Shown here piece after piece: positions 9,955-63,673 of a stretch of 64,000 nucleotides of DNA. A model generated the notes under the pieces. It had not been told where the DNA came from. It saw only the letters and a list, made by a program, of their open reading frames with translations, and made no database searches. The stretch's first letter is position 1; each line of letters begins with the position of its first letter. Origin of the DNA: Paraflavitalea sp. CAU 1676 (GTDB lineage: Bacteria; Bacteroidota; Bacteroidia; Chitinophagales; Chitinophagaceae); contig NZ_JARHUJ010000006.1 in the NCBI RefSeq assembly GCF_029223285.1, positions 248,001-312,000 of the forward strand. The letters run 5' to 3'. The position numbers and the translations under genes are program-made.

Positions 9955-9974
9955 TTCTACAAATATTTGTAGAA
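9955..9974. promoter_or_regulatory. Perfect 20-bp palindrome upstream of the Lrp gene
   Basis: TTCTACAAATATTTGTAGAA is identical to its reverse complement. Position (33-52 bp before the start codon), AT-rich centre and length fit a binding site for an Lrp/AsnC dimer. Confidence 0.6.
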
Positions 9975-10071
9975 TATCGAAACTTTCAAAATTTTTATTG
10001 AATAATTCTCAACGAATGGCCTTCTTTCTTTAATATTGCACTGTAATCGTTCTTTAAAAGTCAGTAGATAC

Positions 10072-10235
10072 TGTGGAGTGATGGAATTTTGGCAGACATG
10101 CCCCCTTGTCTCGGGGGTGGGGGTCACAGGATAAACATAGTGTAATGCCGTCCTTCGGGATGACTGGGGTTGACCACCACAGATTGCGCTATAGCTAACT
10201 GCCCCGTGGAGGTTCGAGTCCTCCCTCTACAGCCA
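10072..10235 (+). tRNA. Abnormal tRNA-like gene: Leu-type D arm, GUC anticodon, 90-nt variable region
   Basis: A full cloverleaf can be drawn. Acceptor stem: TGTGGAG (10072-10078) pairs with CTCTACA (10225-10231), one G-U pair; discriminator G10232; encoded CCA 10233-10235. D stem: ATG/CAT (10081-10083, 10097-10099), with a loop nearly identical to bacterial tRNA-Leu (GGAATTTTGGCAGACA). Anticodon stem: five C-G pairs (10101-10105 with 10113-10117) around the loop TTGTCTC, giving anticodon GUC (Asp). T arm: GGAGG-TTCGAGT-CCTCC (10208-10224). The variable region (10118-10207) is about 90 nt, far longer than any class II tRNA; it holds a UUCG hairpin (10149-10162), and G10119-10123 can pair with C10202-10205. 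Position 37 is T instead of a purine. An intrinsic terminator follows. It may be a functional tRNA, a degenerate tRNA-Leu, or a tRNA-derived regulatory RNA. Confidence 0.7.
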
Positions 10236-10250
10236 GAGCAAGCAACACAT

Positions 10251-10289
10251 AAACCCTGTCGGATTCTTCCGGTAGGGTTTCACTTTTTT
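10251..10289 (+). terminator. Intrinsic terminator of the tRNA-like gene
   Basis: AAACCCTGTCGG and CCGGTAGGGTTT form a 12-bp stem (two G-U pairs) with the loop ATTCTT, followed by CACTTTTTT. It begins 15 nt after the encoded CCA and shows that the tRNA-like element is an independent short transcript. Confidence 0.85.
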
Positions 10290-10379: not shown

Positions 10380-10513
10380 TTCTAATCGTTCATGAAACTT
10401 TCTCAAACTATGTGTCAACCATGTACCAAACATGTGCCTTTCATTGGTAAACACCCCCGTTTGACACATGGTTGGTACAAGGATGAGGCCAGGTTGAGGC
10501 CAGGACTACAGCC
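10380..10513. repeat. 11-bp periodic degenerate repeat in two facing inverted arms
   Basis: From 10380 to 10445 the sequence falls into 11-bp units such as CTCAAACTATG, TGTCAACCATG and TACCAAACATG. After 13 bp a second series with the same period but inverse orientation runs from 10459 to 10513: GTTTGACACAT, GGTTGGTACAA, GGATGAGGCCA, GGTTGAGGCCA. The arms are partly complementary (ATGTGTCAA against TTGACACAT), so an imperfect hairpin is possible. No open frame follows the pattern. A similar element occurs at 29341-29481. Confidence 0.6.
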
Positions 10514-63498: not shown

Positions 63499-63530
63499 CT
63501 ATATACTTAATGAAATATACGTCGGGCCCA

Positions 63531-63608
63531 TTTGCATTTCCTCCGCTGGTATTAGCCAGATCAGGTTCCCGGGTATTATCTCAGCCTTGTGCAGGCACCC
63601 CGATGCAA
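63531..63608 (-). promoter_or_regulatory. TPP riboswitch (THI element)
   Basis: Read on the minus strand, the conserved thi-box segments appear in order: GGGGTGCC, GGCTGAGATAATACCC, GAACCTGATCTGG and TAATACCAGCGGAGGAAATG. P1 is TTGCAT (63608-63603) paired with ATGCAA (63537-63532). The CUGAGA and GAACCUGAUC cores bind the pyrimidine and pyrophosphate of TPP. The terminator at 63465-63498 follows, so TPP should shut off the methyltransferase/AIR-synthase-like/thiE/Trm112-like operon. Confidence 0.95.
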
Positions 63609-63673
63609 TGTGTATCTCAAAAATATTAATGTTTGCCCAACTGGCAAAATGGATTATCGGCAGCGGCTATACT

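Follow-up and report, generated by a model that had tools for sequence, protein, structure and literature searches.

The tRNA-like gene and its locus

The window, i.e., the whole analyzed stretch of 64,000 nucleotides from Paraflavitalea sp. CAU 1676, carries at 10072-10235 one member of an RNA family absent from Rfam, whose copies join a tRNA cloverleaf to a structured variable arm, roughly 35-130 nt in length. The parts of the gene and the neighboring features are listed in Table 1. The acceptor stem of the window copy has 7 bp (TGTGGAG/CTCTACA), and its variable arm continues beyond the conserved internal loop with a distal helix and a three-way junction. A preliminary description of this DNA had proposed a tRNA body with all stems and an independent terminator, which is borne out by the sequence and by the covariation in the family, and had pointed to a Leu-like D arm together with Asp determinants, a combination now confirmed in the sequence and across the copies. 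Two further details of that description apply to the window copy but not to the family at large: the CCA end is encoded here, but in just 23 of 207 copies, and the UUCG hairpin is present here, but is only one variant of a variable hairpin. The gene is single-copy in its own genome, as judged from blastn. ARAGORN called no tRNA in the whole window, and a search of the window RNA against Rfam returned no relevant family at the gathering score or at E<=10, nor was the RNA called by the tRNA model RF00005.

Table 1. Features of the RNA gene and its surroundings, in window coordinates.
Feature	Position	Strand	Evidence
Divergent AsnC-type regulator, 155 aa	9455..9922	-	NF008384 AsnC 162.5 bits; PDB 2cg4 124 bits
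Perfect palindrome TTCTACAAATATTTGTAGAA, possible regulator site	9955..9974	.	Modest family-wide palindrome excess
Putative -7 promoter box TAATATTG	10031..10038	+	Pattern TA..[TA]TTG in 179/214 upstream regions
BoxA-like element GTTCTTTAAA	10049..10058	+	GTTCTT in 106/214 upstream regions
tRNA-like RNA gene, nt 1 to encoded CCA	10072..10235	+	Conserved family; covariation
Acceptor stem, 5' strand (U1 G2 U3 ...)	10072..10078	+	U1, G2 in 208/208 copies
D arm: 3-bp stem ATG/CAT, G18G19, A at 20a (our own numbering)	10081..10099	+	G18G19, A20a in 208/208; stem covaries
Anticodon arm CCCCC-TTGTCTC-GGGGG, anticodon GUC, C38	10101..10117	+	U35, C36 in 207/207 readable; C38 207/208; G34 204/208
Giant variable arm, 89 nt	10118..10206	+	Covariation; internal-loop conservation
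Variable-arm basal helix	10118-10122/10202-10206	+	Covariation
Variable-arm second helix	10127-10129/10199-10201	+	Covariation
Conserved variable-arm internal loop GATAAA/CTAA	10130-10135/10195-10198	+	Loop conservation
Hairpin P1, UUCG-capped here, length-variable in relatives	10149..10162	+	
Hairpin P2 with conserved GGTTGACCAC	10165..10179	+	
T arm GGAGG-TTCGAGT-CCTCC	10208..10224	+	T54 T55 C56 A58 in 208/208
Acceptor 3' strand and G73	10225..10232	+	G73 in 208/208
Intrinsic terminator	10251..10289	+	

Two putative transcription signals precede the RNA. The first one we take to be a -7 box of the Bacteroidetes type (TAnnTTTG), the second presumably represents a boxA-like, antitermination-type element. 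The frequencies of both motifs refer to 214 upstream regions, i.e., those of 269 copies less those with the end of another copy just upstream, and compare with a mean of 38 regions in mononucleotide shuffles for the -7 pattern, whose distance to the RNA varies widely, and with 6.5 in shuffles for GTTCTT, which mostly lies near the acceptor stem. A search for 16S genes in relatives with a primer pattern gave matches in three of six genomes, and GTTCTTT is also present in the 16S leaders of two of the three relatives examined. The leaders from one relative (L317) and from another (L318 and L320) carry GTTCTTTGAAA; those of a genome of the window's own genus (L319 and L321 of G003) read GATCTTTGAAA and contain no exact GTTCTTT within 330 nt. 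Because the boxA-like signal is common to the RNA and to 16S leaders, the RNA may be expressed like a stable RNA.

Inspection by eye of the region between the RNA and trmB showed related repeat segments around TGTGTCAACCATGTACCA and TTTGACACATGGTTGGTAC (10410-10479). At the far end of the window, a TPP riboswitch scores above the gathering score (63521-63612, minus strand).

Distribution and fold of the RNA family

Absence from related genomes, which the preliminary description had named as an argument against its reading, was not observed: 83 of 147 genomes, including its own, contain a blastn match to the RNA, while 64 have none. A search with the pattern of the anticodon arm gave at least 117 stretches in named genomes. 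Among the 80 pattern matches listed, most come from Chitinophagaceae or Chitinophagales (Chitinophaga, Niastella, Flavihumibacter, Segetibacter, Terrimonas, and others), two from Saprospiraceae and two from Sphingobacteriales, the remainder being less resolved. A covariance model built from 74 long copies (R1) was applied to larger samples. Its listed matches in a phylum sample of 395 genomes fall into two score groups, the family at 86 bits or more and tRNA-sized matches at 61 bits or less, so the tally of 234 of 395 genomes includes ordinary tRNAs; these are also counted in the 137 of 198 genomes matched at E<=0.001 in an order sample. At E<=1e-18, the model matched 67 of 395 genomes of a class sample and 5 of 149 genomes of a second class, two of the latter being already known carriers. 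Two matches from the class sample are borderline (L301 and L302, 76 and 74 bits) and show an odd or gapped anticodon loop, and near-complete genomes from the same bacterial family, e.g., G035 and G255, gave no match at E<=0.001. The family is found in Chitinophagales, in other orders of its class and, rarely, in a second class of Bacteroidota, and it is not universal even within its own bacterial family.

Neighboring copies are frequent. Counting listed copies only, the 165 loci behind the two alignments described below comprise 133 with one copy, 22 with two, six with three, three with four and one with five, values that are lower bounds, as one of the alignments (A3) is a selection. From nt 1 to C74 the copies measure 108-205 nt (median 152), and short forms of about 112-126 nt are found side by side with long ones. 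One locus (L205, 850-1380, minus strand) harbors two degenerate copies downstream of an intact one, which share flanks and in which the variable arm is retained along with a portion of the T arm, other sequence standing in place of the 5' tRNA half. A mobile element was considered and ruled against by the absence of any blastn match to the window RNA (E<=1e-5) among 72,556 plasmid and 50,697 phage records. No description of this RNA was recognized among the open-licence papers searched; a description elsewhere is possible.

The cloverleaf is documented by two alignments, which were evaluated over 47 named pairs. A3 contains 74 copies aligned by sequence only, without use of the structure. The pairs are formed in 96.5% of its cells, compared to 43.8-54.2% with partners slid, and 21 of the 47 pairs change on both sides. 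A5 contains 135 distinct copies fitted to the model and therefore leans toward the structure; here 37 of the 47 pairs change on both sides, including every helix of the variable arm. The D stem and the anticodon stem hardly vary in A3 and show no changes on both sides there, so that their covariation rests on A5 (two of three and three of five pairs, respectively). The cloverleaf stems do covary, as the preliminary description had suggested to examine. It had further considered an alternative fold via a second G run at 10119-10123, which is left unsupported because the first four bases of this run sit in the basal helix of the variable arm and covary with 10202-10206. The variable arm follows a common order of basal helix, short bulge, second covarying helix and conserved internal loop. 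In the 135 copies, the GAHAAA side of this loop shows G in 97, A in 131, U/C/A in 76/26/26 and then A in 129, 121 and 117, and the four positions of the CUAA side are kept in 126, 128, 134 and 134 copies. Past the internal loop the arm is free, folding into a plain hairpin in the short forms, with the long form building a three-way junction that contains GGGUYGACCAC.

Folding of single sequences lent no support to this structure. The whole window RNA folded no better than shuffles (z = 0.10), two short relatives gave z = 0.17 and 1.19 with minimum-energy folds other than the cloverleaf, and the variable arm alone was only slightly better than shuffles (z = -1.44). Two other interpretations of the insert were discarded. 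A group I or other intron is rejected on the grounds that the insert occupies the variable region, that the covariation at its base is that of a tRNA variable arm, and that short forms coexist with long ones; a small ORF or tmRNA-like reading was dropped on inspection of the alignment by eye. We regard it as practically certain that the family is real and tRNA-folded.

The AsnC-type neighbor

The divergently oriented gene next to the RNA had been described as lrp, but its product is of the AsnC type instead, as the Lrp model reaches only 54.5 bits and the Lrp structure only 45 bits, compared to the AsnC values given in Table 1, where the best PDB match is E. coli AsnC. Note that the score with the AsnC model still lies below its curated cut-off of 227. 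Both the helix-turn-helix domain (PF13404) and the AsnC ligand-binding domain (PF01037) are recognized over cut-off. An AsnC-type gene is present in 156 of 186 RNA loci (some places being taken twice in this number) and is divergent in all 156, the gap between the two genes being 151 nt at the median and 260 nt at most. Among more distant loci, 55 of 89 show an AsnC-type gene on the opposite strand within 400 nt, and all ten regulators scanned from these 55 are best matched by AsnC, with 150-178 bits. No AsnC-type gene was seen in 30 of the 186 and 34 of the 89 loci. Some of the distant loci lacking the gene lie at contig ends, others are complete with unrelated neighbors, and because several of these contigs are not cut short, the RNA can evidently live without asnC linkage.

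The gene for trmB on the other side was rejected as a functional partner, since 55 of 147 loci contain its ORF cluster (46 ORFs within 1.5 kb), compared to 130 of 147 for the AsnC-type cluster. A strong operator motif between asnC and the RNA was likewise not called, the excess of inverted repeats being too weak: repeats with arms of at least 8 nt occur in 37 of 153 intergenic regions versus 84 of 765 Markov-resampled ones. At one locus (L202), the stretch separating the AsnC-type gene from the RNA holds an inverted repeat whose arms measure 24 bp, located 113 nt upstream of the RNA; the next longest arms among the 153 regions have 13 bp.

In E. coli, asnC and asnA are arranged divergently. 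The E. coli regulator activates asnA and acts as its own repressor, and asparagine, when present, weakens its effect on asnA (PMC8707732).

Identity marks, decoding marks and a possible role

A view on the tRNA positions in 208 distinct copies shows a large set of bases fixed in all of them: U1:A72, G2:C71, U8, G9, G12:C23, C27:G43, C28:G42, T54, T55, C56, A58, C61, C62, G73 and C74, as well as G18G19 and A20a when counted by alignment column; C31:G39 and U3:A70 are nearly fixed. In its cloverleaf with the T loop TTCRA and G18G19, the family resembles decoding tRNAs. C74 is not distinctive in this respect, as the host tRNA genes show it in 36 of 36 cases as scored (with two Ser rows shifted by one). 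Position -1 is C or U in 190 of the 208 copies and could pair with G73 to give an 8-bp stem. These invariant positions in 208 copies contradict the suggestion of the preliminary description that the gene is a decaying tRNA-Leu. A decaying tRNA-Leu or pseudogene might explain the Leu-like D arm with its similarity to the host tRNA-Leu genes, and degenerate copies do occur beside an intact one in one locus, but covariation and invariants across two classes leave this explanation with hardly any probability.

The anticodon loop shows a peculiar pattern. Position 34 is G in 204 copies, C in two, U in one and a gap in one, U35 and C36 are found in all 207 readable copies, and position 38 is C in 207 of 208 and A in the remaining one. 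Position 33 is U in 158 copies, including that of the window, which makes U still the commonest base, followed by C in 24, G in 18 and A in seven (one gap), and position 37 is U in 191, C in ten, G in five and A in one (one gap). U33 and a purine at position 37 are the bases kept by decoding tRNAs; the family as a whole does not keep them, with U33 in 158 of 208 copies and the purine in six of 208. After in silico excision of the variable arm, ARAGORN called 147 of 205 cores, comprising 144 tRNA-Asp(gtc) and three tRNA-Glu(ctc), and left 58 uncalled. Three copies from two families carry Glu-type anticodons (CUC in L240 and L241, UUC in L246), with the AsnC-type gene still divergent. The RNA is very probably non-decoding. 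A genuine decoding tRNA-Asp (or Glu) whose variable arm is merely unusual would account for the GUC anticodon and for the 144 of 205 excised cores called as tRNA-Asp, but U33 is missing in about a quarter of the copies and a purine at position 37 in nearly all, and the host already possesses an ordinary tRNA-Asp, which makes this explanation very unlikely. The reassigned decoding tRNA contemplated in the preliminary description is unlikely because U33 and the purine at 37 are not maintained; another of its proposals, a use outside of translation, is judged probable, since these bases are not kept while the Asp positions are. The same loop also bears on the idea of a trans-acting antisense sRNA, which would use the tRNA fold for stability and GUCUC as an exposed seed. 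The loop does belong to the most conserved single-stranded parts within Chitinophagaceae and the gene has its own promoter-like signals and terminator, but a contiguous seed is not kept, given T/C/G/A at position 33, G/C/T at 34 and T/C/G/A at 37, with 35 and 36 fixed and 38 nearly so, and we consider this role improbable.

Several of the positions that are kept correspond to published identity elements. According to the portions of PMC9976931 considered here, G73, G34, U35, C36 and C38 are strong aspartate determinants and G2-C71 is a minor one, G1-C72, strictly conserved among bacterial tRNA-Asp, assists AspRS in positioning the 3' end, and U1-A72 makes Asp-tRNA(Asn) a substrate of the amidotransferase, with G1-C72 and U20a acting as antideterminants. 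The family keeps the strong aspartate set and G2:C71 (208/208). Its first pair is U1:A72 instead of G1:C72 in all 208 copies; with this pair and the lack of U20a (A20a, likewise in all 208), it shows the published features of a GatCAB substrate. In a comparison with 36 host tRNAs taken from 62 matches, U1:A72 is limited to the Asn and Gln genes and one Ile gene. The main host tRNA-Asp (L159) contains G1:C72, U20a and the loop CTGTCAC, and a second one, located in a tRNA cluster, has A1:U72. The RNA thus has a Leu-like body on which an anticodon loop of the tRNA-Asp type is combined with the first acceptor pair found in tRNA-Asn.

The scan of the host genome also revealed a dense tRNA cluster with eleven tRNA matches and ten ARAGORN calls in one locus (G000:C1:319234-320312), unlike the scattered tRNA genes elsewhere and possibly derived from a phage or another element. 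A tRNA-like gene with a two-base anticodon call lies beside tRNA-Lys and tRNA-Ile (G000:C19:792234-792306), and a degenerate 96-nt tRNA match (G000:C19:790392-790487) is not called by ARAGORN.

The enzymes that could act on such an RNA are encoded in the host, which has AspRS (608 aa, bacterial-type; L322 179-2005, minus strand), AsnRS, GlnRS and GatB; among the genomes asked, GatB is present in five of five, AsnRS in six of six, and GlnRS over cut-off in five of six. With one further weak match of the AsnRS profile in the host, to a 555-aa frame, a second AspRS is conceivable. According to PMC4206432, a genome that has AsnRS, GlnRS and GatCAB can form asparagine on tRNA-Asn, and the clades in which some genera have neither asparagine synthetase include the Bacteroidetes. 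Judged from its identity positions, the RNA is likely to be recognized by AspRS, and we lean slightly toward its being charged rather than only bound. An RNA that is bound only, i.e., a decoy or titrating regulator contacting AspRS by its anticodon loop and tuning the supply of Asp-tRNA in trans as an unproductive substrate, would keep the same identity positions, and the thrS and yeast AspRS mRNA mimics bind synthetases through anticodon-like loops according to the relevant passages of PMC9976931. The conservation of U1:A72, G73 and an unbroken acceptor stem in all 208 copies is more than such a decoy would require, and this role appears rather unlikely.

The reading preferred here, with moderate confidence, is that of a free-standing, AsnC-linked, non-decoding tRNA-like RNA that is recognized and probably charged by AspRS and serves Asp/Asn homeostasis. 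The steps from transcription to charging that we infer would be as follows. The RNA would be transcribed from its own promoter-like signals opposite the AsnC-type regulator, end at its own terminator, be processed like a tRNA and be given CCA. AspRS would recognize and probably aspartylate it via G34, U35, C36, C38, G73 and G2:C71, and the failure to maintain U33 and the purine at 37, together with the sheer size of the variable arm, would keep it out of the ribosome. Its level or charging would then serve aspartate/asparagine homeostasis together with AsnC, and GatCAB may amidate the Asp-RNA to Asn-RNA, as suggested by the presence of U1:A72 and the missing U20a. The strongest point for this model is found within one loop, where 34, 35, 36 and 38 are kept while 33 and 37 drift. 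The strongest counterpoints are the loss of G1:C72, which is otherwise strictly conserved in bacterial tRNA-Asp in the cited account (PMC9976931), the bulk of the variable arm, which might clash with AspRS, invariants outside the identity set (C27:G43, C28:G42, C61, C62 and the T-loop bases), and the loci that lack asnC.

The variable arm with its GAHAAA/CUAA internal loop would hold a partner in the preferred model. The tRNA mimicry together with this separate structured arm would also fit a protein scaffold or RNA-quality-control RNA of the Y RNA (YrlA) type, in which the tRNA-like module serves only for stability or as a gate. Such a role appears still less probable than an antisense function, because no Y RNA family is among the seven Rfam matches up to E=10, no Ro60-type gene was recognized in the neighbor lists of the RNA loci, the anticodon pattern is left unexplained, and the linkage is to AsnC.

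The boldest extension of the preferred reading, which remains rather doubtful, is that GatCAB amidates the RNA, which would then act as a carrier or sensor, i.e., a dedicated RNA cofactor for asparagine. The tRNA-Asp identity of the anticodon loop together with the tRNA-Asn acceptor pair would let AspRS load Asp and GatCAB convert it to Asn; with an RNA unable to decode, this Asn would never enter proteins at Asp codons. Free Asn, or the Asn/Asp charging state of the RNA, might feed or report the asparagine supply under control of an AsnC-type regulator, whose E. coli partner gene is asparagine synthetase A, and the rare Glu-type anticodons (CUC, UUC) would represent glutamine versions. If true, there would be an RNA class keeping the marks read by a synthetase, and perhaps by an amidotransferase, and dropping those for decoding, so that charging would be separated from decoding in nature and a tRNA turned into a metabolic carrier or sensor. 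The retention of GatCAB in these Bacteroidota, which also have AsnRS and GlnRS, would be given a reason, and it would become possible to test directly for tRNA-dependent synthesis of asparagine outside translation in culturable soil bacteria. At minimum, the family adds a large RNA family that Rfam lacks.

Compared to known systems, the RNA resembles tRNA-Asp in its cloverleaf, G34 U35 C36 C38, G73 and G2:C71, and host tRNA-Asn and tRNA-Gln in U1:A72, but differs from tRNA-Asp and tRNA-Asn by the 3-bp D stem, the Leu-like D arm, the giant variable arm and the unkept U33 and purine 37. It shares the 3-bp D stem and a long variable arm with the class II tRNAs (tRNA-Leu and tRNA-Ser), the D loop being near that of host tRNA-Leu, whereas its variable arm is usually several times longer and often branched, the anticodon is of the Asp type, and G73 replaces the A73 of the five host tRNA-Leu. 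The bacterial Y RNA YrlA is another case of tRNA mimicry outside decoding, from which the RNA differs in having no Rfam match. The same kind of mimicry is known from the thrS and AspRS mRNA mimics in the portions of PMC9976931 cited above, but here it resides in a free-standing RNA gene rather than an mRNA leader. As in the E. coli asnC-asnA pair (PMC8707732, in part), an AsnC-type regulator lies beside a possibly asparagine-related target, which is here an RNA gene and not an asparagine synthetase. Finally, tRNA-dependent asparagine synthesis in Deinococcus, Thermus and Bdellovibrio, as outlined in the cited parts of PMC4206432, likewise involves genomes with AsnRS, GlnRS and GatCAB and an acceptor with U1-A72. 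In those systems, the carrier is an ordinary tRNA-Asn and AspRS is non-discriminating, whereas the role of carrier would here fall to a dedicated, non-decoding RNA that has an Asp anticodon.
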